Both the position numbers and the translations under genes were made by a program. The notes under the pieces are model-generated. The model saw only the letters and a program-made list of their open reading frames with translations, made no database searches and had not been told where the DNA came from. A stretch of 35,995 bases of DNA from positions 1-35,995 of the forward strand of contig CANSRZ010000003.1 of assembly GCA_947649575.1 (NCBI GenBank), given 5' to 3'. This document shows positions 3,974-27,626 of the stretch, one piece after another (the stretch's first letter is position 1; each line of letters begins with the position of its first letter). The DNA is from an uncultured Clostridia bacterium (GTDB lineage Bacteria > Bacillota > Clostridia > Christensenellales > UBA1242).

Positions 3974-6900
3974 TTACATTGCAAATGAATCAGATGTATC
4001 CTTAAGCACAACTGGTTTAACTGAGCGATATTCTTTTACGCCAGTACCCGCTGGGATAAGTTTACCGATAATAACGTTTTCTTTAAGTCCGCGCAGGTGG
4101 TCAACCTTACCTTGAACAGACGCATCAGTAAGAGTTCTTGAAGTTTCTTGGAACGATGCCGCTGAGAGGAAGCTTTCAGTTTTAAGAGAAGCCTTAGTGA
4201 TACCAAGAAGAATTCTCTTAACTGTTGCAGGAACGCCACCCTCTTGCAAGATGCGTTCATTTTCTTCATCAGCTTTAAAGATGTCAACGATTTCGCCAGG
4301 AAGAAGATTTGTATCTCCGCTTGCCTCAACCTTAACTTTTTTAAGCATTTGACGAACAATGATTTCAACGTGCTTATCATTAACTTTAACGTCTTGCCCA
4401 CGATAAGTTGCAATAACTTCATTAAGAAGATATTCTTGCAAGCCTTTGATACCTTTCATTCTCAAGAGGTCGCTTGGATTGATTGCACCAGCAGTAAGTT
4501 GAGAACCAGGCTCAACATTGTCTCCATTCTTAACCATCAAAACAGCAGGTTTTTTAACTTCATAAGATACATCACCCTCACGAGAAGTAACAGTGATATA
4601 GTAATACTTAGGATCTTGTTTGATTGTAACTTTGCCAGCAACTTCAGAAAGTTGGCATTCACCCTTAGGCTTTCTTGCTTCGAATATTTCTTCGACACGA
4701 GGAAGACCTTGAGTAATATCAAGAGCGGCAGCAATACCACCAGAGTGGAAAGTTCTCATTGTAAGCTGAGTACCAGGCTCACCGATTGATTGAGCAGCCA
4801 CAATACCAACAGCTTCACCAACAGTAACCTGTTTTTTGCCTGCCAAATCTCTTCCATAGCACTTAGCGCAAACGCCATGACGGCAACGGCAAGTGAGAAG
4901 ATTTCTAATTAAAACTTTCTTTATGCCACAAGCAACGATAGCATCAGCCTGAGCTTTTGAAATCATTTCATTGGCTTCAACAATTATCTCACCAGTTTTT
5001 GGATTAACAATTTGCTCAACAGAAGTTCTGCCATAAATTCTATCTTCAAGAGGCTCTTGAACTGAGCCTTCTGTAACAATATCACTTACCCAAGCTCCTT
5101 TAACATTTTCACCAGCATCAGCAAAGCAGTCCTCAGTTGTGACAGTCACGTCTTGAGCAATATCAACAAGACGACGAGTCAAATAACCAGAGTCGGCTGT
5201 TTTAAGAGCTGTATCGGTCAAACCTTTACGAGCACCACGAGCTGAAAGGAAATATTCAATAGGAGTCAAACCTTTACGGAAAGAAGCCTTAATTGGGATA
5301 TCCACCTTTTCACCAGAAGCGGTTGATTTAATACCAATCATACCGCAGACATTACAGAGCTGGTCCTCAGAGCCACGGGCTTTTGAAGTAACCATAATTC
5401 TGAATGGGTTAAATTCTTCCATGCCAGCGATAAGAGTTTTCTTAACGTCATCACGGCAGTCATTCCAAATTCCGATATTAGTTTTAAGTTTTTCATCAAG
5501 AGTGATAAGACCACGCTTGTAAAGTTTTTCATTTTCAAGAACTTTTTCTTGAGCGCCAGCCAAGATCTCTTCCTTGCCTTTAGGCTCTTCAATATCAAAT
5601 ACGTTAACTGTAAGAGCAGCAATAGTTGAATATTTGTAGCCTGTCTCTTTAATTCTATCAACAAGTTTAGCACACTCGGTTGTTCCAAGCACTTCATAGG
5701 CCTTGCCAATGATTGCTTGCAAGTCTTTCTTCTTCATAGGCGCGTTAATTTCAAGGTCGCAAATATTTTCTTCCTTGCTTCTGTCAACAAAGCCAAGGTT
5801 TTGAGGAATTGCATCGTTGAAAAGGAGACGTCCAACTGATGTTTTAACAAGTTTAGAATATTCTTTCCCGTCAACTTTCTTAGTCAAACGAATAGAAACT
5901 TCTGCTTGAAGATCAAGTGCCCCAGCTTGGAAAGCCATAACAGCTTCATCTTTTGACTTATAAACATTGCCCTCGCCAGGAACGCCAGGCCTGATCATTG
6001 TCATATACGCACAGCCAAGCACGATATCTTGGTCAGGAGTAACGATTGGGTTACCGTCTGAAAGTTTCAAAAGGTTGTTTGAAGCAAGCATTAAAGTTCT
6101 AGCCTCAGTTCTTGCGTCAAGTGAAAGAGGAACGTGAACAGACATTTGGTCACCGTCGAAGTCAGCGTTGAACGCAGGACAAACTGATGGGTGAAGCTTG
6201 ATTGCTCTGCCCTCAACAAGGACAGGCTCAAAAGCTTGAACAGAAAGTCTGTGAAGAGTTGGAGCACGGTTAAGGAATACTGGGTGATCTTTAATAACAT
6301 CAGCCAAAATATCCCAAACAATAGGTTTTTCTTTTTCAATCATACGCTTTGCAGCTTTAACATTGTGGGATTTGTTAAGGTCAACAAGGCGATTGATAAT
6401 AAAAGGTTTGAAAAGTTCAAGAGCCATTTCCTTTGGAAGTCCGCATTGATACATTTTAAGTTCAGGACCAACGACGATAACTGAACGACCAGAATAGTCA
6501 ACACGTTTTCCGAGCAAGTTCAAACGGAAACGACCTTGCTTTCCGCCAAGCATAGCAGTAAGTGATTTAAGGTCTCTTCCCTTTGAAGAAAGCACGGCTT
6601 TGCCACGTTTGCCATTGTCAATAAGATTGTCAACAGACTCTTGAAGCATACGTTTTTCGTTTCTGATAATAACATCAGGCGCGCCAAGCTCCATGAGCTT
6701 TTTCAAACGATTGTTTCTGTTGATAACACGTCTGTAAAGGTCGTTAAGGTCGCTTGTTGCATAGCGTCCCCCATCCAATGGAACCATTGGACGAAGATCA
6801 GGTGGAAGCACAGGAATAACATCCATAACCATCCAAGTAGGATTGTTGCCAGACTTAATGAAAGCCTCAACAACGTCAAGTTTTTTCATAGCTTTGATTT

Positions 6901-7510
6901 TCTTTTGACCTTTCATGTTAGGAAGTTGTTCTTTCAAAACCTTGCTTTCTTTTTCAAGGTCAACTTCGCTTAAAAGGCGTTTGATAGCCTCAGCACCCAT
7001 GCCAGCCTCAAAAGAACCATAGCCATATTTTTCAACAGCATCACGATATTCTCTATCAGTGATAACTTGTTTGTAAGTAAATTCAGTCTTTTTAGGATCT
7101 AAAATAACATAACTAACATAATAAACAACTTGTTCGAGTGCCTTTGGAGTCATTTCCAAAAGAGTTCCAATCTTTGATGGAACGTTTCTAAAGAACCAAA
7201 TATGAGTGCAAGGAGAAGCAAGTTCGATATGCCCCATACGTTCACGACGAACTTTGGCACGAGTTACTTCAACACCGCACTTATCACAAACAACGCCCTT
7301 ATAACGAACGCGTTTATATTTACCGCAGTGACATTCCCAGTCTTTTCTAGGTCCAAAAATCTTCTCGCAAAAAAGACCATCTTTCTCAGGTTTTTGAGTG
7401 CGATAGTTGATAGTTTCTGGTTTGGTAACTTCACCGTGTGACCATTCTCTAATTTTTTCAGGTGAAGCAACACCAATTTTAATAGAATCGAAGTTGTTTA
7501 ATTCAAACAT
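3974..7510 (-). CDS. rpoC: DNA-directed RNA polymerase subunit beta prime
   Basis: At 1178 residues this is the normal length for a Firmicute beta-prime subunit. The N-terminal zinc ribbon has Cys60, Cys62, Cys75 and Cys78. The catalytic magnesium loop NADFDGDQM is at residues 448-456 with all three aspartates. The C-terminal zinc site [11 protein letters not shown] is near 870-880 with its partner Cys near 795, and the trigger-loop segment ending MRTFHSGG is near 910-920. The protein forms the active-centre cleft of RNA polymerase with RpoB. The start at 7510 has an AGGAG site 9 bases upstream. It is the last gene of an operon starting with rpoB, but unusually five small genes separate the two. 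A strong terminator follows instead of the rpsL-rpsG-fus genes common in Firmicutes. Confidence 0.99.
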
Positions 7511-7579
7511 AATTTTTACTCCTAAATATTTGTTGTTTTGTTAGTTAGTTTTTTATTGTTTCTCTTTACTTTTAATTTT

Positions 7580-7807
7580 TTAATTTTCAATAGAAGGTTC
7601 ATTTTTGTCAGCATTATCTATTGCAGAATAGTCCATAGGCCACTTTTTGCAAGATTTTGGAACTGGAACTCCATCAATTTCTTCATAACCACTCTCTTCA
7701 AGCACCTTACGCATACGTTGATTACCTTTTTGTTCACCAATTCCCGCAACATTTACATGATGTTTTCTTCTAACAAAAGTTTTTTCAACTTTATTTTTTT
7801 CTTCCAT
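7580..7807 (-). CDS. Small protein of unknown function (75 residues) between rpoB and rpoC
   Basis: This short reading frame starts with MEEKNKVEKTF and has a textbook AGGAGG site 7 bases before its ATG, so it is very probably translated. The protein is highly charged. It has a basic stretch VRRKHH near residues 12-17, a predicted helical middle (NQRMRKVLEESGYEE) and an acidic C-terminus; it has no membrane segment or cysteine pair. It begins 9 bases after the previous small gene ends and stops 69 bases before rpoC, so all are likely co-transcribed. I recognise no family. Its place in the core polymerase operon suggests a link to transcription or its control, but that is only inference from position. 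Confidence 0.65.
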   Translation of the reverse strand: MEEKNKVEKTFVRRKHHVNVAGIGEQKGNQRMRKVLEESGYEEIDGVPVPKSCKKWPMDYSAIDNADKNEPSIEN

Positions 7808-7816
7808 TTTATCCTC

Positions 7817-8074
7817 CTATTTCCCTTGCTCGTCGTTTCTATTTGGACGGCAAGATGCGATAACCATTTTTGCAGAATTTTCCCAAGAATGTTCGTCAAG
7901 TTGTGGATATTCACCGCCATAAGATTTTTCAACCAATGTAACATTTGATAGACTGATTTTTGACGGGTCATCAATTTTCTTAGCAGTAAAACCTTTAGTA
8001 ATTTTAATTTCAGGTTGTTTATGTGCATAAGCAGATTGTGTTTTTACTGCACCGTTCTCAATCTTTTCTTCCAT
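7817..8074 (-). CDS. Small protein of unknown function (85 residues) between rpoB and rpoC
   Basis: The frame starts with MEEKIENGAVK and has AGGAGG 6 bases before the ATG. The sequence is polar with a mixed-charge N-terminal part, a KITKGFTAKKIDD stretch near residues 24-36 and a C-terminal ENSAKMVIASCRPNRND segment. There is no signal peptide or transmembrane segment, so it should be cytoplasmic. It is spaced 9 bases from each of its small neighbours. Its first four residues and ribosome binding site match those of the 75-residue gene next to it, but the remainder does not align by eye. No family is recognised. Confidence 0.65.
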   Translation of the reverse strand: MEEKIENGAVKTQSAYAHKQPEIKITKGFTAKKIDDPSKISLSNVTLVEKSYGGEYPQLDEHSWENSAKMVIASCRPNRNDEQGK

Positions 8075-8083
8075 ATTATCCTC

Positions 8084-8392
8084 CTACTGCTCGTTACTTA
8101 ACATAACTCGCTTATATCTGTTTTGTTCTACAACTGCGTTTTGTTTTTCTCGCTCTTCAGGAGAATAATTTATCGCAGAAGTAAAGTTTTCTTGACTAAC
8201 AAAGTAGTCAACTTTGATAGCATAGCCATTTCTGGTCTTAATAATTGTATGAGGAGTTGATTGAGTTTTCGTTTTTTGTTTAGGTTCTTGTTTAGGCATT
8301 TCAGTAAACTCGTTTCTTAACCCTAATCTCTCAGCACGCTTTTGTCTTTCACGCTCAATCAGTTCCTCTCTAGTATAATAATGTTTTGCCAT
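8084..8392 (-). CDS. Small basic protein of unknown function (102 residues) between rpoB and rpoC
   Basis: The protein opens with MAKHYYTREELIERERQKR, a strongly charged predicted helix. A lysine-, glutamine- and threonine-rich linker follows (about residues 32-50), then a short predicted beta region (TIIKTRNGYAIKVDYFVS) and a second charged helix (SPEEREKQNAVVEQNRYKR). The ribosome binding site is only a weak AGAGAG 8 bases upstream, unlike the strong sites of its neighbours, so it may depend on coupling to the gene before it, which stops 13 bases earlier. It is cytoplasmic by composition. No family is recognised; the basic helices would suit a nucleic-acid or polymerase contact, but this is speculation. 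Confidence 0.6.
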   Translation of the reverse strand: MAKHYYTREELIERERQKRAERLGLRNEFTEMPKQEPKQKTKTQSTPHTIIKTRNGYAIKVDYFVSQENFTSAINYSPEEREKQNAVVEQNRYKRVMLSNEQ

Positions 8393-8405
8393 AAAATTTC
8401 TCTCT

Positions 8406-8636
8406 TTAATTTTCTAATTCAATAGGTTCAATAAAATTGTAAGTTGCACCGTTGGTTTCAATATGACAACCGACAAGCAGATGAGTTTTAGTATAAAATT
8501 CAAAATATTTGCCTTTGCCAACAACTTTGATAGTGCCTAGCTTATGTTCAATAATAGGAACATCAGTTTTTAAAGTTGGATTTGCCCCAACTTGTTCCAA
8601 ATATCTTTGATAGAACACAGGCATTTTATCTTCCAT
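8406..8636 (-). CDS. Small protein of unknown function (76 residues) between rpoB and rpoC
   Basis: The frame is open further upstream, but the start at 8636 (MEDKMPVFYQRY) is chosen because AAGGGGGTT lies directly before it and the longer version would overlap the previous gene. The sequence alternates short hydrophobic and polar stretches (TIKVVGKGKYFEFYTKTHLLVGCHI), suggesting a small beta-rich fold such as an SH3-like or OB-like barrel. That is a shape guess only. It has a single cysteine and no export signal. It sits 10 bases after the 82-residue gene and 13 bases before the 102-residue gene. No known family was recognised. Confidence 0.65.
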   Translation of the reverse strand: MEDKMPVFYQRYLEQVGANPTLKTDVPIIEHKLGTIKVVGKGKYFEFYTKTHLLVGCHIETNGATYNFIEPIELEN

Positions 8637-8646
8637 TTTAACCCCC

Positions 8647-8895
8647 TTATAAACCTCTAACCGCTTCGGTCGCGATTTTGCGATTGTGTTGTTTCGCAAG
8701 TTCAATTCCTTGATCGATAGTTACTTGCAAAGGTTGATCTAATAATTTGGGAGTTCGTAAAGTCTCTTCAACAGATTGTTGTTGACTTCGAAATTTTGCA
8801 ATTTCTTTCTCGGATAATGTTGAGACAAATCTATCTTTAAGCACAATCTTTTGAGTTTTTGGCTTTATAACCTGTTTTGTTTTCAAAATTGCCAT
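8647..8895 (-). CDS. Small protein of unknown function (82 residues), first gene after rpoB
   Basis: The start at 8895 (MAILKTKQVIKPKTQK) follows AAGGAG with 8 bases of spacing; the open frame extends further upstream but only through the folded intercistronic RNA, so the longer start is rejected. The N-terminus is very basic, followed by a predicted helix (TLSEKEIAKFRSQQQSVEE) and a second helical region near the end (IDQGIELAKQHNRKIATEAVR). No signal peptide or membrane segment is present. It begins 167 bases after the rpoB stop codon, and that gap forms several stable hairpins that could regulate this and the following four genes relative to rpoB. No family is recognised. Confidence 0.65.
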   Translation of the reverse strand: MAILKTKQVIKPKTQKIVLKDRFVSTLSEKEIAKFRSQQQSVEETLRTPKLLDQPLQVTIDQGIELAKQHNRKIATEAVRGL

Positions 8896-8948
8896 AATTT
8901 TCTCCTTTTGCAACCTTATCGGCTTAGAATTTTTACTTCGCACGAGAG

Positions 8949-9065
8949 TTGCGACAAAACGCCAACGGAGTGCGTTTTCGTTTGGTCGCAAGTAACGGAA
9001 ACTTGCGTTAAGATTGATGACTTTTGCTTCCGCAAAAGTCGAAACGTATAGCAAGATTTCCGTTA
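8949..9065 (-). other. Highly structured intercistronic RNA between rpoB and the small genes
   Basis: Several perfect or near-perfect stems are packed here. The segments 8994-9006 and 9051-9064 pair with a single bulge, taking in the rpoB stop codon, and enclose a perfect 9-bp hairpin at 9019-9040 with a TTCC loop. An alternative 7-bp hairpin at 8987-9007 competes with that outer stem. A further two-part stem joins 8949-8962 with 8972-8991. The arrangement could act as an mRNA processing site, attenuator or translational switch, or be an inserted palindromic element. Stems were found by eye, without energy calculation. Confidence 0.55.
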
Positions 9066-12000
9066 CTCGTCAAAGTCCCCGAAATCATCAAACAAGTCAA
9101 AACTATCAAGGTCATTCTTTGTAGTTTCTTCGTAAAGGTCTTGAACTTCGTCTTTAACGTCCTCAGTTTTATCATCCTCAACAGGAAGAACATCGTCAAA
9201 GTCAAGAGTGATATCCTTGAATTCGCTTTCAGTATCATGAGCAAGTGTGTTTTGATCTTGTTCGTCTTGGCTGAGTTCTGAAAGTGAAATTTCTCTATCG
9301 CCCTCAGTGAGGATCTTGATATCAAGCCCAAGCGCTTGCAATTCTTTTACAAGAACTTTGAATGACTCAGGAATTCCAGGCTCAGCAATTGGAAGCCCCT
9401 TGATAATAGACTCATAAGTTTTAACACGACCATTGAGGTCATCAGATTTAACAGTAAGCATTTCTTGCAAGATATGGCTTGCGCCGTAAGCTTCAAGAGC
9501 CCAAACTTCCATTTCACCAAATCTCTGACCACCGAAGAGTGATTTACCACCAAGTGGTTGTTGAGTGATAAGAGCATAAGGTCCGATTGAACGAGCATGA
9601 ATTTTGCTGTCAACCATGTGTTCAAGTTTAAGCATATATTTATAACCAATTGTAGTAAGGTTTTCAAAAGGCTCGCCAGTTCTTCCATCATAAAGTTGAA
9701 CTTTTCCGTCTGGACGGAAGTTGTTTTCAACAAGGAGTTCTCTGATTTGGTCAGCAGTAGCGCCATCAAATGCAGGAGTTGCAACTTTCCAGCCTAAACT
9801 GCCAGCAACAAGACCAAGGTGAACTTCCATAACCTGCCCGATATTCATACGAGATGGAATACCAAGTGGGCTAAGCACGATATCAAGTGGTTTTCCGTTT
9901 GCAAGGAAAGGCATATCAGCCTCTGGAAGAACGATAGAAACAACACCTTTGTTTCCGTGACGTCCTGCCATTTTATCGCCGACAGAGATCTTTCTCTTTT
10001 GAGCGACAGTAACTTTAACCATCATAGTAACGCCAGGCTCAAGGTCATCTTTGTTCTTTTTAGAGAATACTTGAACATCAACAACAATTCCACCTTTTCC
10101 GTGTTGAACGCGAAGTGAAGTATCACGAACTTCTCTGGCTTTATCACCAAAGATAGCGCGAAGAAGTCTTTCTTCAGGAGTAAGTTCAGTTTCGCCCTTA
10201 GGAGTAACCTTTCCAACAAGGATATCATTTGGATGAACTTCTGCACCAATACGGATAATTCCGTTTTCGTCAAGGTCTTTAAGTGCGTCCTCGCCGAGGT
10301 TTGGAATATCACGAGTGATTTGTTCATCACCAAGTTTTGTAGTTCTGCACTTAATCTCTTGATCATAAAGAGTGATTGACGTGTAAACGTCATCTTTAAC
10401 AAGTCTTTCATTGATAAGGATAGCGTCTTCGTAGTTTTGACCCTCCCAGTTAAGGTATCCGATAAGCACATTTTTACCAACGGCAAGTTCGCCTTTGTCA
10501 GTTGAGTAACCGTCAGTTAAAACATCACCTTTCTTAACTTTTTCGCCCTTAACAACGCAAGGTCTTTGATTGTAACATACATCATCATTTGCTTTAGCAA
10601 ATTTTGTAAGAGTATAAATATCTTCATCGCCTTTTTCAGTTCTCACTCTGATTTCATCGGCTGAAACATAGCTAACTTCACCGTCACGTTTTGCAAGATG
10701 AATACATCCGCAATCTCTTGCAGCTTTGGCTTCCATGCCAGTTCCAACAATTGGAGATTCTGGTCTAAGTACAGGCACTGCCTGACGTTGCATGTTTGCA
10801 CCCATAAGCGCACGGTTAGTTTCATCGCCATTAACAAAAGGAATTAAGCTTGTAGCAACTGAAAGTGCTTGTCTTGGAGAAATATCCATAAGGTCAACTT
10901 GAGAAGCAGGAACTTCAACCACGATTGCGCCATGACGACACATAACACGTTTGTTAACAAAATGACCTTCTTCATCAAGAGGCTCAATAGCCTGAGCGAT
11001 AAAGCATTCGTTTTCAACGTCTGCCATAAAATATTTAACTTCTTTAGTAACAACACCCTTTTCTTTATCAACAATTCTGTAAGGAGTTTCAAGGAAGCCA
11101 TAGTCATTTACTCTAACATAAGCAGCAAGAGTGTTTAAAAGACCGATTGATTGACCCTCAGGAGTTTCAATCGCACAAATTCTGCCATAGTGAGTATAGT
11201 GAATATCGCGGATTTCAGGATCTGCACGTTCCTTTTTAATACCTCCAGGACCAACGGCAGTAATTCTACGCTTTTGAGTAATTCCAGAAAGAGGATTCTT
11301 TTGATCCATAATTTGAGACATTTGAGATTGACTGAAGAAATCTCTGAGCGCTTTATTAACAGCCTTAGGGTTCATGATTTGAGATGGAGTAACCTCAACA
11401 AATTCACGACCTTGCAAGGTTTCTTTAACATTTATAGAAAGTTTTGTGATTCCGCTTCTGAAAGCATTGCAAGTAAGTTCGCCAACAGTTGCAACACGTT
11501 TGTTTGAAAGGTGTTCAATCTTGTCAATCCCAGCAATATCTTCAAGCACATCAAGATAACAACTGATTGTAGCCAAAATATCATCCATAGTTAATGTTGT
11601 GATGATAAGATTTTTAGCATTTGCTTTAATTGCTTCAATGCGTTTTTCTTTTGTCTTATTTTCAGAAAGGATTTGTTGAAGTGCTGGATAATAAACATCT
11701 TCAGTTATTCCAAGTTCTTCTTGTTTGCAAGGGAAAACTTCACTAAGAGTAACGCGATTGTTGCCTCTCATCAAATGTTTTTTGCCAGGAAGCTGAACCC
11801 AAACTTCGTTTACGCCAGCGTTTTGAACAGCTTTTGCACTTTCAGCAGTGAAAACCTCACCTGCTTTCATAAGTTGTTCGCCGTCTACAATAATATCCTC
11901 AGCAGAAACAAGTCCAGGAAGTCTTTCTTTTAAAGCAAGTTTTTTGTTAAATTTATAACGGCCAACTCTTGAAAGGTTGTAATAAGCGTCAGTAAAGAAT

Positions 12001-12770
12001 GAAGCATTGATAAAACTTCTTGTTGTTTCAGCAGAAGCAACGTCGGCTGGACGAGTTTTTCTAGAAAACTCAATCAAAGCGTCTTCTTGGGTTGTGATAA
12101 CTTCACGGTCGATTACGTTTTTGATGTATCTGTTATTGCCAAAAACTTTCAAGATGTCATCATTAGAAAAGCCAAAGCATTTAAGGAAAACGCCAAGAGA
12201 AATTTTGTTTTTTCTTTCAAGAACAATTTTCAAAGCTTCGTTTGCACCTTGAACAATTTGAATCCAAGTTCCGTGAACAGGAATCATATCAGCAGAAAGA
12301 GTTGCGTTATCCTCTTTCTCACGTTTAAGATAAACAGATGGAGCACGGACAATTTGATTGATAACAACTCTTTCAATTCCGTTAAAAATGAAAGACCCTT
12401 GTTCAGTCATCATAGGCACATCGCCCATAAACACTTCTTGCTCAACAGCTTGTCCAGTTTCTTCAACGACAAAGCGAGCCTTAACTTTAAGTGGAGCTGA
12501 ATAAGTTGCACCACGACGTTTGCACTCTTTGATAGAATATTTAGGTTCAGTGAAAGGCAAAATTTCTGTAATATAAAGTTTAGCCTTGCCACTATAATCA
12601 GCAAGTGGGAAGAACTCATCCAAAACAGTTTTAATCCCTTTAGTCAGGAACTCCTCGTAAGATTTCTTCTGAATTTCGAGAAGATTTGGCATTTCAAGAA
12701 GATCTTCACATCTTGCAAATGTGTATCTGTCTTGTTTTCCATTAGAAATTTTCTTAACATTAACTGACAT
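9063..12770 (-). CDS. rpoB: DNA-directed RNA polymerase subunit beta
   Basis: The subunit has 1235 residues from the start at 12770 (MSVNVKKISNGKQ), chosen because AAGGAG lies 9 bases upstream; an in-frame ATG 13 codons earlier has no such site. Typical motifs are the GDKMAGRHGNKG segment near the C-terminal third, the fork-loop region KRRITAVGPGG (residues 500-510) and HYGRICAIETPEG (527-539). The last 60 residues are strongly acidic, an extension common in some Firmicutes. In the rifampicin-resistance region several usually invariant residues differ: Gln499, Thr504, Ile487 and Val506 at E. coli positions 526, 531, 514 and 533. It is the first gene of the operon, with its own consensus promoter and a folded leader. 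Confidence 0.99.
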   Translation of the reverse strand: MSVNVKKISNGKQDRYTFARCEDLLEMPNLLEIQKKSYEEFLTKGIKTVLDEFFPLADYSGKAKLYITEILPFTEPKYSIKECKRRGATYSAPLKVKARFVVEETGQAVEQEVFMGDVPMMTEQGSFIFNGIERVVINQIVRAPSVYLKREKEDNATLSADMIPVHGTWIQIVQGANEALKIVLERKNKISLGVFLKCFGFSNDDILKVFGNNRYIKNVIDREVITTQEDALIEFSRKTRPADVASAETTRSFINASFFTDAYYNLSRVGRYKFNKKLALKERLPGLVSAEDIIVDGEQLMKAGEVFTAESAKAVQNAGVNEVWVQLPGKKHLMRGNNRVTLSEVFPCKQEELGITEDVYYPALQQILSENKTKEKRIEAIKANAKNLIITTLTMDDILATISCYLDVLEDIAGIDKIEHLSNKRVATVGELTCNAFRSGITKLSINVKETLQGREFVEVTPSQIMNPKAVNKALRDFFSQSQMSQIMDQKNPLSGITQKRRITAVGPGGIKKERADPEIRDIHYTHYGRICAIETPEGQSIGLLNTLAAYVRVNDYGFLETPYRIVDKEKGVVTKEVKYFMADVENECFIAQAIEPLDEEGHFVNKRVMCRHGAIVVEVPASQVDLMDISPRQALSVATSLIPFVNGDETNRALMGANMQRQAVPVLRPESPIVGTGMEAKAARDCGCIHLAKRDGEVSYVSADEIRVRTEKGDEDIYTLTKFAKANDDVCYNQRPCVVKGEKVKKGDVLTDGYSTDKGELAVGKNVLIGYLNWEGQNYEDAILINERLVKDDVYTSITLYDQEIKCRTTKLGDEQITRDIPNLGEDALKDLDENGIIRIGAEVHPNDILVGKVTPKGETELTPEERLLRAIFGDKAREVRDTSLRVQHGKGGIVVDVQVFSKKNKDDLEPGVTMMVKVTVAQKRKISVGDKMAGRHGNKGVVSIVLPEADMPFLANGKPLDIVLSPLGIPSRMNIGQVMEVHLGLVAGSLGWKVATPAFDGATADQIRELLVENNFRPDGKVQLYDGRTGEPFENLTTIGYKYMLKLEHMVDSKIHARSIGPYALITQQPLGGKSLFGGQRFGEMEVWALEAYGASHILQEMLTVKSDDLNGRVKTYESIIKGLPIAEPGIPESFKVLVKELQALGLDIKILTEGDREISLSELSQDEQDQNTLAHDTESEFKDITLDFDDVLPVEDDKTEDVKDEVQDLYEETTKNDLDSFDLFDDFGDFDE

Positions 12771-13224: not shown

Positions 13225-16200
13225 TTAGATAAACAAGTCATCAAAAGTAGTCTCAAACAACAGAATAGAGAAGTCGTCTTTCACTGGAAGCCAAACCTTG
13301 ACAACATTTTCATGTCCGTTTGTTTCAAGTCCGCCACGTGATAATTCTTCCAATTTGATATAAGGGTTATCCTGCCCGTTAGTTTGCTTTTGTCCACCCA
13401 AATACAAATTATCATCATTCTTGTCGTCCTCGCCAGGGTTTGTCAACTTAGAATACCAGTTCAAAGTGCCATATTCATAATAGCGATCCAATTTAGAATT
13501 GTATACAAGTTCAACTTGTTCAGTTACAGTTGTGGTCTCACCATTATCCCCTGTAACAGTCTTTTCACGAGTCCAAATGTAATAATCAAACAAATTGTTA
13601 AGTGCATCTTGATTTGCGTTTATTTCAGTTCCAAGCATCTGGGAACTTGCTTGACCAAACATTGTGACTGTAAGGTTTGAAAAATCAATTTCAGCATTAG
13701 ATTTAAACTTAACTGATCCGCCTAAACTGCCATCAACTGCGCCATCAACATCTTCCTTGATTTGTCCAAAATAATACACATCTTTGATGTTAGAACCATT
13801 AGCAAGATTTGCAGTATAATTATTATGCTCACCGCTTGATGTTACATCTTTTGGCTCTGAACTTACACGATAATCTTCAAGAGTAACATCAATTGTCCCT
13901 GAGAAGAAACATCTTTGCATGTTAAGCACTCTTGCATGCTTACAAACAAATCCACTAACATTTGCGCTTCTATCAGAAGTGTAAGTATAACAGTTCAACA
14001 CAAGATTTGAAGTGCAATAACTGTCATAGATATCCAAAATTGAGCCGTCGCTTGTTTCTCCAACAAAGCCAGCCAATTGACTGCTTCCGTTTAGCCCCTC
14101 AACCTTTAAGGTTCCGACCTTGACAGCAATCTGATTCATTGTTACATAACCGCCGTTAAGTTTGCCAATAACGCCACCCAAATTGCGTCTTGCGATAATT
14201 TCTCTGCCACTAACAATAATTTGGTCAAGGCTGATATTATTATATACATCACCAACAATGCCACCAATATTGTCAACATTTCCTACCGAACTAGAACCTG
14301 ACGACATTTGAGAATTGATAGTAAATGCTTGTTGCATATCAATTCGTGAAAGTTGTCCACCATACATAACGCCAACAACGCCACCAACTGCGACAGGAAC
14401 TTCTGGGATAATTTCAAAGCTGTTCAGAGTTTGCCCTGTTGCGCTTGTTTCAACTTTAACAATATCCAAATGTCCTCTATTCTCGCCTGCTACATAAGCG
14501 CCATATTCATAAGCTCTAAGCTTGGTTTCAGTTGTAGGCCTTACAATCATATTTTGAACAAGAATATCTTTGCCGACACCACCAAAAGCAAGCCCTGCTC
14601 TGCCACCCATAACAGTGTTGACATCCTCAACAACAATCTTCTTGATTTGGCCTCTTCCACCTGTTGCATAGCCCACCAAGCCACCTGCATAAGAGTATTC
14701 AGTATCAGCCAGTCTGCTGATTTCATAAGAAGAAACTTTCTCTGGTGGAATATAGTTTGCAACTGCTGAAAGGTCGCTTGAAGAATTGAAGATCATATAA
14801 TTGCCCTCAGCTCTTCCGATGAGCCCTCCAACAAAGTTTGCGCCTGCAACGTTAACAACATTGTCATCTCTTGAAATGTTAACATTAAAGATATAGCCAT
14901 TTTTAAGCACGCCCGCAAGGCCACCCACAATAGTTGTGTTTGTAAAGGCAATATCAGTTGCAGGATAAACGTTAAAGTTCATCACAACTCCAATAGAGTT
15001 TGAATCATTGCCAATTTGAGCAAACATTCCAGCTTTATCCAAACTTGAAGCAGAAGCAAGCAGGATGTTTCTAACATTCATGCCGTTGCCCTCAATGCTT
15101 CCACAGAACGTAACTTCATAAAGTTTTGATGGCTCTGGATATTCAGAATAATCTATATCGTTTATAAATCTGTAATGCTTATTATTCAAATTCAAAGCAT
15201 TTCTTTCTTCATAAATCAGATTTTCCATATCACTTGCATTTTTGATTAAATAAGGGTTACGTTGAGAGCCAAGAGCAAAATATTCATCGCTTATGCTGTC
15301 AGCATATTCATATAAAATTTCGCCATTGTCTTGAACATTATCTCTATCAGAAATCAACTCTCTTCTGCCTCTTGCAATAAGGTTAGCAGAAACAAGTTCA
15401 AACCTTTCACCGTTAAACTCAACTTCGTCATAGAGTTTTGAAGTTTTGCCTTTTTCTGAATAGAACCATACAGCATTTGCATTGATTTCATTCATATTAT
15501 AAACAGCAAAAGTTCCAAAATGTTCTTCAAAATTCTCGTCTTCCCTGCTAAAGCCTTTTCTATTTAACTTTGAAACGCCAGGGAAATCTCTTGGAACAAT
15601 ACTATCATTAAGCTCGCCAAGTTCAGGATATCCAGCGCTTATTCCGTTTCCGTCAACGTTTTCGATATCCTCTTTTCTGTTCACAAAGTAATAACACTTA
15701 TCAAACACACCTTGGGTTGCCGATTCACTTGTGCCAATCCCAGAGTTTGCAACAATTTGATTGTTCATAACAAATCCTGCACTAGAAGTTACACGGTCTG
15801 TCAAAATGCTTAAAGAGAAGCTGTTTTCAATATAACCACCGTTGTCATGAACAAAGCCTGCCATTGTTGAAGAGCCCTCAATGTTGATGTTTGAATAACA
15901 GTTAAGCACTCTTCCAGTGTTAGAATACACAAATCCCGCTTGGTCAGAAGATGACACCAAAATGTTTTCTTTATCACGAGAGAACACATACGCGCTTTCA
16001 GTTTCGCCTGAAACATAAGAATTTCTGATAACGGCAGTGTTTTCATTTTGACTATCACCACGATTTACAACAACAAGCCCGCCAAGAGCATAGCCTGTTC
16101 CGTCAACTTCAATTCGTCCGCCCTTGAAATAACAGCCCGCAATTTTACCTGTGTTCACGCCAACAAGACCGCCTGCGTTATAACTTGACAGAATATTGAG

Positions 16201-19200
16201 AGAAGCACGGCTGTTTGTGATATTTCCGCTATTATCACCTACAAGGCCAGCCATAAAGCTTTGATTTCCAAGATTTTTAGGCTCTGACTTGAATGTAAAA
16301 TTCTCGCCAAGAGTTTCATTTTGCGCGCTTTCAACTGAGCAGTTTGTTATTATTCCGCTGTTTGCGCCTGCAAGCAAGCCTGCATAATATGCGTTTTGCG
16401 AAGTTGTTCTGAAATTAATATCTCCGCCAAGCACAACTTTGACATTTTTAAGCACTGTCTGGTCACTAATCTGACCAAACAAGCCCATGTTTGTAACATT
16501 GCCTAAATCATACACGCCGTTAAATGTGATTGAGTAACTATTGCCGTCCAAAGACGCAATTGCTGTGTTGATTGGAGCAAATGGTGTTTCGGTCACTGCT
16601 GTTGAATTAGGGATTATAATGTCTTGCAATAGGATATAATTAGCGCCTGCCTGCATATTCATAAGGTCTTCATAAGTGTCAATTGGAATAGGAGTTTCTT
16701 CACTACTGCTTTGGAAAACATTGAGCGAGAACTCTGTTTTAACAATGTTAGACTGTGTTGTCAAAGCAGGATTATAGTTACAAACATATTGACCTTGTCT
16801 GATTGTAAATGAACCCTCATAAGTAAACAAATAATAAGGAGTTCTTGGATTGTGGGTTCGTCTTGGAACAACATTAAAATCACTGACAGTCATATAAGTG
16901 TTTGTAAATTGTATATCTTTTCCAATAGCCATTCTTGAAGAAGCCGTTTCAGTAGTTATTCCCTCATTTGTAGAGCTTCCGTCAGCAAGCAAATTTGTAT
17001 AAAGTATCCATCTTCCGCCCTCAGTCATGCTTGTCATAAAGCTTTCAACTTTTTGACGAACTGAAGCAATGCTATCATCATATTCAATAAATTGATAAAG
17101 GTCAACTGACAAAGCTTGCTTATTGCCAATTCTTACATTGACAACTCCGTTTGCCATATCACTAACAATATCAGCGTCTTTGGCAAGTTCATAATTATAA
17201 TCAACAACATATTCAAGAACTTGAATTTGAGTGATTGAAGTTGTTTCTCTCAAAATTTCACCGTCTTGCTGTTTTGCTCTTGCAATGATGTTGAAAGTTG
17301 CATAGTCACCAGGATAAGTGATGTCATTTGAAGTTACAACAAGATAATATCTGTCATTTTCTTTTTCAATTCTTGCAAATTGGCTATCAACAGAAAGAGT
17401 TACATTATCTCTGCTAAATCCCCAAATGTCATCAAGAGAAAGTTCATAACGCAAGCCTCTTGCCACTTGATAAGTTGCATGAACACTTGTGTCGCCAGTC
17501 ACAACAGGAGTTTTGCCAACAATATCAACATTGGCTTTGAACTCTATTTTAAGTTGAAGTTCAATGCTCTCCTTTGCAGGAGGTTGATTGTCAGTTCCAA
17601 CATAAACATTAAATTTTGTTATGCCTTGTGCGCCAACGCCATTCGTGCCGATGTTATATCTCAAATAGATAACTCCGTCAAACGGCATTGCATTGTCATC
17701 GCCTGTGCTTGTTCCATAAGCGTCTAAAAGGTCTTGCAAACTGAAACGAACTCCCCTTGCAATGCTAGTACCTGTAATGGCAGTTTCAGTAAATTCAAAT
17801 CTTCCGCTGTTTGGTCTTGAAACAAGCGAGAAGTTTGCCACGCCGTTGCCCTCTTGATAGCAAAGCTCGTCGTTCTCAATTGAGATATAGTCAAAATCGC
17901 AATCTTGTGGAGTCAATGTGATAGCCAAAAGCCCACTCTTGCCAGGAATAGCAATTTTTGAAGTAGAAGAGAATGTTGCATCAGTTTGATTTATATCAGA
18001 ATAGTTATCAATAGAAATTGTTTCAACTGTTGTCTTTTGCAAGTTGATTGTTATCACTTTCACTTTTGATGGATCAGTGCTTGCATAAAGTTCAATTGTG
18101 TATTCGCCATAAATATTTTCATTATATCTATTCTTGTAAATTTCACTGCTAGTGTTAAAAATAATTTGAAGTTTAAATTTGTAAGCAGTAAGTTCGTTTG
18201 AAATATTTTCGCTAGACAATGGCACAAATGTAAGTTTAAATACATCTTTGCATGCATTTAATTGTTCTTCAATTGAGCCAAGGTCAACTCCAGCATAGGT
18301 GCTGAAAATTGCTTTGCCATTTCTTGCAATAACATAAGATGGCTCTTCCTCTTGCCTTGTTGAAAGCACTTCAATTTCAGTGTAAGCCTCTCTTGCAGTG
18401 GTCATTGCAATAGTGTTATATTCGCTCTTTATGCTTTTAGCGCCTTTCAAATAGCGCATTTCAACATTTGTGAGCTTTTTGTTAACATCACAAACATATT
18501 GTTTTCTTACTGTTGCGCTTTCAGCAATAACAACATTCAAGATTGGAGAAAATTCAACATAGTATTTGATATTTTCATCCTTTCCGCCATATTCTTTTGT
18601 TCTGTCATTATGATTGATTGAAATAGTTTGCCCGTTAATCAAAACGTCAACTTCATTTCTTGCAACAGTTTCAAAGCCAGTTGTGTCATAAACATATTCT
18701 TTGACAGGAATTTTATTGCCATCTTGGTCAACCTTAAAATCGCCAGTTTCTGAGTCGATTTCATAAACAACATTGCCCTCTGAGTCAAGTTTGTTTCTGT
18801 AAATTTTAAGTTGAGTTGTCACAACTTCATTGCTGTTAAGATTGATGTTTGTTCCCTTATTGCTAAGCACGCCGTCTTGGATAAACCACTTAATATTGTT
18901 ATCCTCTCTAGCGTCAATATCATTAACAGGTCTGACATACAAGTTCAGATTGCTATCGCCATAAATCTCCAAAATAGAGTCATCAATTGCAACTGCTGAG
19001 TTTGACAAACTTGGATAAATGATAGACTTTGAGTTATCAGAGTTAAAATAGTCAACCACATAGATATAGAAATTGAGAGAGTTGTTTATATCCAAGATGC
19101 TTGCCAAGTTGATTTGAGCAAGTCCTGTGCGAGAAATTGCAAGTCTGCCACTCTGATCAATTGTCAATATATCTGTTGAACGAGAGGTCAAACTCATGCC

Positions 19201-22200
19201 TCTGTCAATCACGATAGGATAAAGCATGCTTTTTGGATTTACAATATTGAAATATTCATCAAGATAAGCCTGACTTTCTGTAACATCAGAAATATCTTCT
19301 TGATAGATAAAGCCGTTTGAAGTAAAGTGGAAAGCATAGAACACGTTGTTTGTCAATTGATAGCCACTGGCAGTTTTTTCCATAAAACTTGCAAAGCCAG
19401 CTTCTGTGTTTGCGCGAACGCTTACACCCTGTTCGCCCTTAGGCAATATTGCGCGAACAAATTTAATTCCATCAGGCATTGTAATGTCGATTTTTCCATC
19501 GCCATTATTGCCGATATAATCAAGCGCTCCTGTATTATCAATTGCCTTTGCAACAACAAAGTCGCCATAAAAACTTGTGCTGTCATTGGCTGTATTTGCA
19601 TATTCGTCCAAACGTCTGCGATTTACATAAGTGAACATGTTTCGAGAAGCATTATCACCCACTTCCATAATTGTGTAAGCAGGGACTAAATTTGAAAAAC
19701 CGCCAAAAGTGAAATAATTTGGATTGAATTTATATTTGCCTTTCTCATCACACAGTTTGTCAGTATCATCACTATCAGCAAAATAGTTGATATTGTTAAG
19801 GCTGATATTATTAACAGAAGAAATTCCTGCATAAACTTTTGCAACCATTGAAGCATTAAAGCCAGTTGCTCCTGCGTCAGTTGCTTGAACTGCAACAGCA
19901 AGAGTTGTTTCATCGCCACTATTAAGCTTTGCATTTGTAAAGCCACTGATTGCGCCAACAAACTTCGTTCCTAAAACAGAAACGCGTGAGGTTATGCCTG
20001 CAAAATTAACACCAATTGTTGTAGTTATGTTTGTATCAAATATTTGATTTGCTCCAAGAAGTCCAACAACGCCTCCGATATATTGTTCGATTTGGTCAAT
20101 GCTGTCAGTAAATGTTGTAAATGTTGTATCTTTAATGCTTCCGCCAACAGTTATTCCTCTGCCAGCTTCATAAACTTGAACTTTGTCAGTAGCGTTAGAG
20201 CCAATTTTGCTATACAATTCCCCGTTTGACGCATAACTAACAATTGCGCCAAAACTGTCACTGCCAGCATCAAAATAGCCAGCCACCATGCCTGCATAAT
20301 TGCGTGCTTTTGTGTTATTTCCGCTTATTTCAATATTAAGATAAGCCAAATAATCAGAGTAACCATAAAGTTCGATTTCGTCATCTTGATAGTCGATTTC
20401 TGTGCCGTCATCAAAAACAACAACTCGTCCAGTATCATATTTCAAAATCTTGCCATTGTTATAACCTGTCACACCACCTATATATATAGATGAAGCAACA
20501 TCAAGTTTGTTTTCAATTTTAAGTTTATCCCCATACAACAAAATGTTTGGAGTTCTTCCATAAAGTTTATTAAGTTTGGCTTCTTCGTTTGCCTTTTCAC
20601 GAGCAATCGCCTCATTAATTTCTTTAATCTCATCCTGATCAGTAGTTCCATTCAACAGATTTTGATATTTGTTTTCAATCGCGATTTCTTGAGCTTTTGT
20701 CAATTTTCTATAATTGTACAATCTGTAATCTTGCTTGATTGTGCCAAGATTTCTGCCAACAACACCGCCAACATAAACAACGCCATTTTCTGTCAAACTT
20801 TCAAATGTGACTTTGCTTTCAGTCAACTCAACGCCAACGTTTATAAGCATAGCGTCTTTGTTAAGCAAGCCAGCAATAAGACCAATATGAGCATTTCCGT
20901 TAACTGCCACATTGATTGAGCCTTTAAACTTAACGCCGTCAATCAGCGCACCGTTTTCCAGTTCTGAGAACAGTCCAAAGTAATTTTCATTTGAAGCGTT
21001 TGTGACTTCAATTCCAATAATCTGAGCCTGCGCTGTATAGCCAGTGATTGAGCCTGAAAATGCTTTTATAGGAAGCTGATTGCTAAACATACTCATGTCA
21101 ATTGTGGTTGAAAGTTTATAATGAGCATCAGGTCTATCATTTATATTAAGCACATCTTCTGGGGTTTCAAGCGAATAAGGATTTTCTTTTGAACCGTCTG
21201 CAAAAGATACACTAATTCTGACGCAACGAGAAGTGTATTCTGGCAAAATAGCATTTCCAGCAATCCAATCAGCCGAAGCGAAAACAATTTCACCTGAAAT
21301 AGTTCCTTGAATATCTGTTATGCCATTTATAAAATTGATAAAGTCATCAGTTATAGTCAGCGTTACAGCCACTACGCCATTTTGAGGCTCGCCTATCACT
21401 ATTCCGCTGTTTCTTGTTGTTATTCCGTTAATTGTTTCGTCAAAAAGTCTAAATTCACCAGTAACAACATCCTCACTGCCCTTATTTTTATATTGCAAAA
21501 CAGGAGCAAAGAAAACTTTATCAAGTTTTGGATTTGTTGCATTTCTAGGAGTTGTTATAAGCACAAGCTCTTTTGTGCGCTGACTTGCAGTGAAAGTTAA
21601 ATCTGTGTTTTTATCACTTTCTTGCAAAGAAAGCCTTGAAACATCAGTATATTCTCTTGAAGTAATGTTGATTGTAAAAGAATATGGTCTATCAAACTGT
21701 CTAACAGTTGCAATAAGTTGCAAAGTTAAAGAAGCATAATCAAAAGCTTCAAAAGTCATAGTTCTTGTGTCAAAAGTTCCGCATCCGTCAAGAGTATAGC
21801 GATTGCCATCTGCTGAATCTGGATTATAGGTCATAATTCCATCAGAAACAAGTGCTCCGTTTTTTCTAACGGCTACATTTGCTCGCCAATAAACATATCT
21901 GTTGTCAAAATTTGCTGAGTCATAACTATTATGATTGCTTGTATCAGATGCCGTTTCTGAAAGTGGATTCAAGAAGAAAAATCCTGATTGCTTAGGCTCT
22001 ACTTGGAAAGTAGCAGTTCTTAAAGTTGCATTGCTTGTGCCAAAATAAACAGTTACATTTCCAGCAGTTATATGGTCTTTTGCATCATAGTCAGCCAAGC
22101 CGTCATGAGTTTTGATAACATCAAGACCGTCTATCAAATTGTAAGAAATAACAATAATTTGATAATTTAAAGATTTTGAAACAAGTTTAAAGTTTTCGTC

Positions 22201-24962: not shown

Positions 24963-27626
24963 TCATTCGTTTTTGTCTTTAAAGATAGAAACAACATAAT
25001 CAAGCGGATTGATTTGCACCATTGTTCTGGCTGACGGCGCTGTAATAACAAACGATTGACCAACAGACGCAGTAACAATTGCGTTTTGCTCTTCCTCGTT
25101 AATTCCGCCTGAATTTTTATAAAGTTCAATCAAGTCGTTAACGTCATTTGGTGAAAGCGAGAAGATAAGTGAATACTGACATGCGTTAATTACGGCTGTT
25201 GATTGACGCTTAATTTCTTCCGAACCAACAAAGTCGTTGATGTTCTGCGTAATAACGACCTGCATTCCGCCATACTTACGGATACGCTTAGCCATAGACG
25301 CCATAAAGTTTAGCGCCAAAGGATACTTAGGGTTAATGAATGTATGGGCTTCATCAACAACGATAATAATCTTTCTGTTGGTATGATGTATCTTATTATA
25401 ATCTTTATTGTTAATAATCTCATTCTCCAAATATTTAAATACAAGAAGCATTTGAGCATTTGTAATCATCAAGTTGTTACCCGCAATCAAAGATTGGAAA
25501 TTGAAGTTAACAAAGTTTTCATTTGTTTCAATAGAAGTTGGACCGTTCCAAAGGTTACTGTTACGTCCACCCTTTGCAAACTTTCGGATATACGCTTCAA
25601 CAATACGAAGATTGTTAAGCAAGAATTCATCTTTTGCGCTTTTTAATTTATCCATCAAAACTTTGTACAAATCATCAAAGGTTGGATAATCTGTTGGCTT
25701 TAATTTTTGAAGATCGGTATCCTCATTGATATTAAATTTATTATAAAGGTCAAGCACAAGCGAGTTTAGCACCTCAAATGCGTCAGATGGAATACCCTCA
25801 AGCACTGTTCTAAAGAATTGTTCCAAGAACTGCAAGTGCTGATTAAAAGAGTCGTCTTGTTTCTTAACTTCAAAATATTTTTTCTTGCCCTCTTCACCAT
25901 CATCCTTATCAAGCGCACGAATGACGTGGAAAGGATTGATAATACCTTGAAGAGAAGAGCCAACGTCAATCATTTTTCCTTTAAGGTTATATGTCAACTT
26001 ATCATATTCTTTTTCAGGGTCGCAAATAAATATTTTTGTGTTATCCGCTGCAAAGTTTGCAAGTAGCATTTTTGTTGCAAAGGATTTACCTGAACCAGAT
26101 TTTCCAATAATCATCATGTTACTGTTAATTCTTTGTGCGTCACGTTTGAAGAAGTCGACGAAAACTGGATATTCATTGTCACCAATATAGAAACCATTTT
26201 CATCTTGAAGCTCACTTGAAACGAATGGGAACACGCCAGCAAGTGAATCTGTTGGAATGCCTGTGTTATATTCCTTGATATAATCTCTTTGAGAAATGCC
26301 AGTTGAAATGAATGCGTCAATTTGACGTCCAAACATTTCGCTATATTTAAAGCCGTTTTGTTTCAAGATTGCTTTAATATCTTTTCTTGCCGAGTCCTCG
26401 CAAGTGATGAAAGTGTTAACATCATAAAGTTGTTGGTTGTTGTTTTTAAGTTCAACAAGAAGATTCCTTAAAGTTTCAATATGAGTTTGCAGTTCAATCT
26501 GAGTAGAACTTTTGCCTGTCTTGTAAAGTTTGTTTTCCATATCCATGATGGCTTTATCAATTTTGCGTTCAGACTCAAACTTAGGCGCTGCCTTAAATTT
26601 CATAACAACCTTTGTTCTGTCAAGCAGGAAGAAACTTGCACCCCAAGCGTTTCCAACTTGAAGAGGATACTCCTTGATTGCAAAGGTTCTAAAATTTCTG
26701 CCGTCAATGTCATAATTTGCAGACTTAAATTTAATCTTGTTTGGAGTTGCCCAATTTTTATATTCAGAGAAAGTTACGCCCTCAAGTTCACGTTCATCAA
26801 ATTCACGATTATAGTTTGCGCGCAAGAACACTGCAAGTTCAGCGCCATACAAACGTTTGGTAGTGATTGGAACAAGTGCTGTGGCAAGGTTGCTGGCAAT
26901 TCCGTTAATAGAATTTTCAAGTGCTTCCATATCTTTATCAAAAACACAAAGATAAAAGAAGTCTTTATAAATTTTATTTTTTCTGTTCTTGTCTTCAATA
27001 AATGAAACACGTTCTTCAAATATAGGAGCTCTTGCATCAACTTCTTGTTGTGACATCTGCCCCTCATACATCATATCAAGCAAGCGGTCATATTTTTTGT
27101 TTTCGTTGTATGTAAAATTGTCAAGCACCATAGCTTTGTTGATTTTTACAATCTCGCAAGTTTGTCCGCCGTCGACTCTTCGAATAGCATTTGCAAAAGC
27201 GTTGATAACATTGTCTTGATTATAGTCATTCAAAAGCCCAAATAAAATCGGCTTAACTTCAAGCACCGCTCCGTAGTAATCCCCATAAGAAATAAATCTG
27301 TCCTGATAAATGCTTTCAAATGGAATTATATTTTGAATGTTAGGTTTCCCCTTAGCAGGATTTTTTTGATACTTTTTCTTCTGCATAGAAAACCTGACAA
27401 GATAAGATAAAGTCACATACAATCTTTCACTGTCAGAAATTTTAAAAAATATAGCAACAGCAAAAATCCCCCACACAATTGCAATCCAATAATGTCCAGG
27501 AAAGTTTGCTCCAATAAGCACGCCCAAAATCGCAGCGACAATGATACCAATAACAAGGTCAAGACCTGTAACGCCTTTAATAAATTCAAGTTTGACGTTT
27601 GTTCTTTTAGGAATAACTCTAACCAC
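24963..27626 (-). CDS. VirB4-family ATPase with N-terminal PrgI/VirB3-like membrane segment
   Basis: This 887-residue protein has a Walker A motif GKSGSGKS near residue 508 and a Walker B motif IIIVVDEAHTF near 755, followed by a motif NINDFVGSEEIKRQS typical of VirB4/TraC/TrsE-type conjugation ATPases. The first 90 residues hold two hydrophobic helices (about 22-45 and 48-68) and a basic stretch ending MQKKKYQ. This resembles PrgI/VirB3 subunits, suggesting a VirB3-VirB4 fusion (inference). VirB4 proteins power type IV secretion at the inner membrane. The start is GTG at 27626 with GAGGTG 7 bases upstream. No relaxase, coupling protein, VirB6 or lytic transglycosylase is visible in the window. 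The downstream gene is the giant lipoprotein, likely in the same transcription unit. Confidence 0.88.
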   Translation of the reverse strand: MVRVIPKRTNVKLEFIKGVTGLDLVIGIIVAAILGVLIGANFPGHYWIAIVWGIFAVAIFFKISDSERLYVTLSYLVRFSMQKKKYQKNPAKGKPNIQNIIPFESIYQDRFISYGDYYGAVLEVKPILFGLLNDYNQDNVINAFANAIRRVDGGQTCEIVKINKAMVLDNFTYNENKKYDRLLDMMYEGQMSQQEVDARAPIFEERVSFIEDKNRKNKIYKDFFYLCVFDKDMEALENSINGIASNLATALVPITTKRLYGAELAVFLRANYNREFDERELEGVTFSEYKNWATPNKIKFKSANYDIDGRNFRTFAIKEYPLQVGNAWGASFFLLDRTKVVMKFKAAPKFESERKIDKAIMDMENKLYKTGKSSTQIELQTHIETLRNLLVELKNNNQQLYDVNTFITCEDSARKDIKAILKQNGFKYSEMFGRQIDAFISTGISQRDYIKEYNTGIPTDSLAGVFPFVSSELQDENGFYIGDNEYPVFVDFFKRDAQRINSNMMIIGKSGSGKSFATKMLLANFAADNTKIFICDPEKEYDKLTYNLKGKMIDVGSSLQGIINPFHVIRALDKDDGEEGKKKYFEVKKQDDSFNQHLQFLEQFFRTVLEGIPSDAFEVLNSLVLDLYNKFNINEDTDLQKLKPTDYPTFDDLYKVLMDKLKSAKDEFLLNNLRIVEAYIRKFAKGGRNSNLWNGPTSIETNENFVNFNFQSLIAGNNLMITNAQMLLVFKYLENEIINNKDYNKIHHTNRKIIIVVDEAHTFINPKYPLALNFMASMAKRIRKYGGMQVVITQNINDFVGSEEIKRQSTAVINACQYSLIFSLSPNDVNDLIELYKNSGGINEEEQNAIVTASVGQSFVITAPSARTMVQINPLDYVVSIFKDKNE

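Follow-up and report, generated by a model that had tools for sequence, protein, structure and literature searches.

The rpoB and rpoC genes adjoin in nearly all bacteria. Among the closest described systems are insertions into the core transcription-translation cluster, for which the excerpted text of one survey reports 163 alteration events in 204 genomes and the insertion of nrdHEF between rplL and rsmC within the rpoBC operon (PMC8046335). The locus analysed here resembles the insertions in that text in that a few genes have been inserted into that cluster, and it has the features of a gene insertion into a core operon, with same-strand foreign genes lying between normally adjacent core genes in some lineages only. 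It is found in a window of 35,995 nucleotides, the whole stretch of DNA that was analysed, which lies on contig C3 of a 1.09-Mb genome.

Five small genes between rpoB and rpoC

The end of rpoB and the start of rpoC are separated by 1,552 bases, and this spacer holds five frames on the same strand as both genes (Table 1). Spacing within the block is 10, 13, 9 and 9 bases, with 167 bases before gene 1, which are not empty but occupied by a double-hairpin repeat, and 69 after gene 5. Anti-Shine-Dalgarno energies for genes 1 to 5 were -8.9, -10.9, -5.0, -10.2 and -10.2 kcal/mol. Compared with 256 ATGs within known genes, of which 7.4% reach -5 and 0.8% reach -7, these values identify strong ribosome sites in genes 1, 2, 4 and 5 and a weak one in gene 3. 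The first-pass annotation, which had described five frames between rpoB and rpoC, 9 to 13 bases apart and with mostly strong ribosome binding sites, is borne out on both position and spacing, and on site strength for four of the five genes.

Table 1. Features of the rpoB-rpoC region, in window coordinates
Feature	Position	Strand	Remarks
rpoB	9063..12770	-	MSVNVKK start; mechanical frame starts 12809; assigned by eye and from tblastn matches of the rpoB end in relatives
double-hairpin repeat	8935..9068	-	first stem includes the rpoB stop codon and the preceding codon; R1 bit score 128.5, the window copy being among those used to build the model
tail TTCTAAGCCGATAAGG	8914..8934	-	common to the rpoB and rpsG repeat copies
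gene 1	8647..8895	-	82 aa; no relative found; lowest codon score among the five
gene 2	8406..8636	-	76 aa; ribosome site overlaps gene 1 stop
gene 3	8084..8392	-	102 aa; weak ribosome site; no relative found
gene 4	7817..8074	-	85 aa; ribosome site overlaps gene 3 stop; relative in G121
gene 5	7580..7807	-	75 aa; ribosome site overlaps gene 4 stop; no relative found
rpoC	3974..7510	-	1178 aa

Counting both strands, the gap contains six frames of at least 70 aa, namely the five genes and a sixth that overlaps them; 300 dinucleotide shuffles gave 0.46 such frames on average and never more than 3. In-frame codon scores, which depend partly on base composition, were 0.006, 0.295, 0.153, 0.317 and 0.420 for genes 1 to 5; all exceed those of 48 out-of-frame open stretches (mean -0.520, maximum -0.210), and real genes cut into 80-codon pieces score between -0.141 and 0.567. 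The score of gene 1 is low and borderline relative to the other four. By codon use all five frames are coding, and all five are intact.

Searches of the five proteins against Pfam, PHROGs, NCBIfam and PADLOC returned weak sub-threshold hits only and placed none of them in a recognised family, in agreement with the first-pass annotation, which had recognised none. All five fell below the cut-offs of the curated polymerase subunit and factor families in Pfam and NCBIfam, none matched the PADLOC models of anti-phage defence, and neither Pfam nor PHROGs revealed an integrase or transposase among them. Solved structures yielded no name for the small genes, and among the matches listed from the open-licence PMC literature no title was recognised as concerning these genes or the hairpin repeat. 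The structure of gene 2 was modelled from its single sequence as a low-confidence helix and four strands (pLDDT 67.6).

Several features of the surrounding sequence were recorded alongside. Window positions 9063-9090 encode the conserved acidic tail of RpoB, which, among the relatives read, is FDDFGDFDE in 77 and FDDFGDFDD in 8. The rpoB gene of genome G002 (locus L008) is interrupted in frame by a TGA, some 74 codons short of the usual stop and within the variable acidic tail, reflecting either a truncation or an assembly error. Directly upstream of rpoB, at the place expected for rplL, a 3776-aa frame with a lipoprotein-like start was identified by eye (13225-24555), and positions 24963-27626 encode an 887-aa protein that, also by eye, resembles a VirB4/TraC-type conjugation ATPase.

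The rpoB-rpoC junction across the genus

An rpoC start was located in 101 genus genomes, and the rpoB-rpoC gap was measured in 95 of these, the remainder having ended at a contig edge or not been fetched. It measures at most 50 bp in 47 genomes, 51-150 bp in 17, 151-600 bp in 28 and more than 600 bp in 3, exceeding 150 bp in 31 of the 95 and reaching its greatest length in the window. By comparison, 80 loci from public genomes, mostly from other Firmicutes with at least three from the same genus, have a median gap of 40 bp and a longest gap of 180 bp. This junction is a hotspot of insertion in the genus. A quick tree built from the ends of RpoB and RpoC, in which the place of the window is weakly supported, puts G128, G002, G110 and G111 nearest to it; their gaps span 126-291 bp and differ in content, that of G002 holding a different 74-aa frame and that of G111 the hairpin repeat without a frame.

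The five frames are absent from the junction in the other 94 measured genomes. Searching 112 genus genomes with the five proteins joined, a query that may miss distant relatives of such short proteins, we found a single convincing relative, that of gene 4 in G121 (E 1.2e-7). The two proteins are identical at 27 of 61 residues (dN 0.546, dS 1.554), and the G121 gene sits between secY- and adk-like genes; these names, like rpsG, fusA and trpS below, were assigned by eye from translations and not by family search. Genes 1, 2, 3 and 5 have no convincing relative among the 112 genus genomes, nor did 396 genomes taken from the order yield one. A two-row profile of gene 4 that includes the G121 relative recovered no third member, and a search of genome contigs with a gene 4 profile gave 150 pattern matches but no relative. 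Weak hits were not counted, whether from the two-row profile (four genomes, E 0.004 to 0.04), from the genus (G116, G088, G102 and G083; E 0.024 to 0.115, in frames of 269-1168 aa) or from the order (five genomes, E 2.5e-4 to 0.09).

The five-gene block is lineage-specific and not an old shared insertion. The earlier suggestion of an old insertion under selection is not supported, given the absence of the five from the junction in 94 genomes and the want of a convincing relative for four of them. Absence from sister genomes, which the first-pass annotation had put forward as grounds for rejecting its proposal, counts in this way against an old age of the block; it leaves the coding part standing, as the frames look coding.

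Other small genes occupy the junction elsewhere in the genus. Family F1 (about 65 aa) lies between rpoB and rpoC in five of its six genomes, looking whole in G093 and G008, carrying a TAG in G099, short in G105 and split into two frames in G034. Since F1 has decayed in three genomes, guests also get lost. The sixth match, in G012 (E 6e-5), a 59-aa frame that follows a trpS-like gene, is probably a true F1 relative, so that F1 is likely not exclusive to rpoB-rpoC. Family F2 (about 145 aa) gave seven strong matches in 6 of the 112 genus genomes, all directly upstream of rpoC: G070, G087, G076, G097 (two tandem copies), G081 and G061, whose contig ends before rpoB becomes visible. A further candidate member in G120 (E 0.005) was not counted.

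The genome of the window carries a second such locus between rpsG and fusA (L046 10071-10994), which has two additional genes, 92 and 194 aa long and likewise unrecognised, behind a copy of the hairpin repeat. The 92-aa gene has relatives elsewhere, in G012 and G024, and the 194-aa gene belongs to family Y, which occurs in 4 of the 112 genus genomes and in every one of them between rpsG and fusA; a profile built from these four members found no fifth among the 112. Nei-Gojobori dN/dS values were 0.20 for F2 of G087 versus G070, 0.25 for the F2 tandem copies of G097, and 0.23 over 77 codons for Y of G081 versus G088. These values show that F2, and with Y a second sister family, is under purifying selection, and hence that some guests are kept by selection. 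Profiles A3, A4 and A7 already include most of the matches that they report and for that reason added little beyond their own rows.

A double-hairpin repeat beside the guests

The repeat upstream of gene 1 was searched with a covariance model built from six copies, which identified 8 strong copies in the genome of the window and matches in 69 of the 112 genus genomes (E 1e-4, with stricter filters). None was found in 89 loci (493 kb) assumed to lie outside the genus, and none of the eight loci compared with Rfam passed a gathering score except through tRNAs; the repeat matched no known RNA family there. A search of 49 loci, which covered every one of the 34 relatives whose gap exceeds 100 bp, placed the repeat between rpoB and rpoC in 10 of the 95 genomes, that of the window included.

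In an alignment of 51 copies, 48 of them distinct, 88.9% of cells are paired and both-side changes occur in 31 of 33 pairs (14 of 15 in helix 1), against shuffled means of 67.3% and 21.4 and at most 50.7% paired in slid versions, the alignment having been fitted to the structure and favouring it. Placement was classed for 46 of the 51 matches, namely the best-scoring ones and three added rpoB copies, so that the shares are not those of a random sample. In 16 copies the neighbour is a tRNA no more than 2 bases away (10 follow its 3' end, and 6 adjoin its 5' end in the opposite orientation). Another 22 are placed -14 to +20 bases from the stop codon of a frame of at least 80 aa, with rpoB copies accounting for 10 of these, and the other 8 fall into neither group. 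The five left unclassed were already covered (two in L135 and that in L097) or were the weakest (L183 1912-2055 and L177 23-133).

The stem often opens with the A of a tRNA CCA or with letters of a stop codon, and the far arm matches them, as in the arm pairs GAGTGAC/GTCACTC, GAATAG/CTATTC and AATAGG/CCTATT; in G122 the stem opens immediately downstream of the stop codon. Among 35 chosen copies, a first stem that covers 11 or more positions and starts at -1 to +4 of the element is present in 29, G035 among these being doubtful, and 6 do not fit. Arms vary among copies yet pair mutually, and the element has no constant terminal inverted repeats. The match between arm and host gene end may reflect selection on RNA folding or the mode of insertion. 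The tail that follows the repeat in the window (8902-8934), and that recurs in L046 near 10042-10070, extends in both places as far as the first guest's ribosome site; the tail of the rpoB and rpsG copies differs from that of the tRNA copies seen in this genome. Other repeat-like sequences, unlike the double hairpin, were seen in the gaps of G110 (L049), G128 (L055) and G030 (L116).

Of the 10 genomes whose gap contains the repeat, 3 have a guest, versus 9 of the 85 whose gap lacks it (p 0.11); among gaps above 100 bp the figures are 3 of 10 with the repeat and 9 of 25 without (p 1.0). In this count G081 was entered as broken or uncertain, although its F2 frame is uninterrupted from what may be a GTG start. 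As the association is not significant, a single mobile unit comprising repeat and guests was dropped as an idea, and we treat the two as separate tenants of a permissive spacer.

Origin and possible roles of the guests

By their coding character the five are real small protein genes; most probably they are recent at the scale of the genus, reside as guests in the rpoB-rpoC spacer and are expressed with the operon, and that they are accessory and dispensable we infer. Promoter-like and terminator-like sites are no more frequent than in shuffles, which makes co-transcription with rpoBC likely and, with it, the expression in step with the enzyme that the first-pass annotation had anticipated. The rpoBC message would include the five genes, each translated from a ribosome site of its own, with the overlap of site and preceding stop coupling translation at genes 2, 4 and 5. 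Different species have different small genes in the spacer, with or without the double-hairpin repeat, and selection keeps some of these families; the essential operon would most likely give the guests steady expression and guard them against loss. The conserved flanks would also let homologous recombination exchange the spacer between species, which could explain the patchy occurrence of F1.

Small, tightly packed genes without relatives resemble mobile cargo, and the block might instead be cargo or debris that a phage, plasmid or other mobile element left behind, transcribed passively with the operon and in the course of being lost. The dispersed repeat at one edge of the block and the repeats and decayed frames in sister gaps are consistent with such an origin, which we nevertheless regard as rather unlikely: phage and plasmid records contain no match to the five, PHROGs gave weak hits only, and five scans of viral contigs returned a single match, L125, discarded as a chance peptide match inside a 1749-aa frame. 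Intact frames with gene-like codon use further argue against debris, and the non-significant association between repeat and guests argues against a mobile unit. That the five are chance open frames that go untranslated is very improbable; four of them lack relatives and the codon score of gene 1 is borderline, but the codon scores lie above every null stretch, ribosome sites are present, the frame count exceeds that of shuffles, and gene 4 has its relative in G121.

The guests could also be polymerase-associated factors that bind RpoB or RpoC during synthesis and tune assembly, transcription or resistance to phage proteins that capture the polymerase. This interpretation is best supported for F2, which occurs only next to rpoC and is under purifying selection, and draws on the concentration of F1 at the same junction, a position that would give expression in step with the polymerase. 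It appears unlikely for the guests at large, as none of the five matches a known polymerase factor and similar guests are found at rpsG-fusA, at secY-adk (the gene 4 relative) and behind the trpS-like gene in G012 (the F1 relative), so that the guest habit is not special to polymerase. The rpsG-fusA and secY-adk cases argue for general operon guests; given that F2 is confined to the junction, an association with polymerase would still be a fair idea for the junction as a whole. We hold it decidedly doubtful that the junction is a slot for fast-changing accessory polymerase factors particular to each lineage, with parallel slots at rpsG-fusA and secY-adk serving translation. Were it so, the five, F1 and F2 would be made beside nascent RpoB and RpoC and would retune or shield the polymerase, for example against takeover by phage.

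Small genes recur between rpoB and rpoC in this genus, with at least one family found nowhere else and kept by selection; they are candidates for unknown transcription factors, and the junction provides a case of how essential operons acquire new genes. The hairpin repeat, which frequently uses the end of its host gene, a stop codon or a tRNA terminus, to complete the stem, likewise deserves study. Like the bacterial small mobile sequences and REP-type repeats described in the excerpted texts of PMC2229807 and PMC2817692, it is a short dispersed intergenic stem-loop, but its outer arms are not constant between copies and correspond to the terminal bases of the adjacent gene. The hairpin elements of sponge mitochondria, among which the excerpted text of PMC2800124 mentions double hairpins, likewise invade intergenic regions and are scattered among relatives, whereas the repeat described here belongs to a bacterial genus. 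As for the guests themselves, the insertions in the excerpted text of PMC8046335 are known metabolic genes, none of them named there at rpoB-rpoC, whereas the window and its relatives present unrecognised small genes that vary by lineage at one and the same junction.
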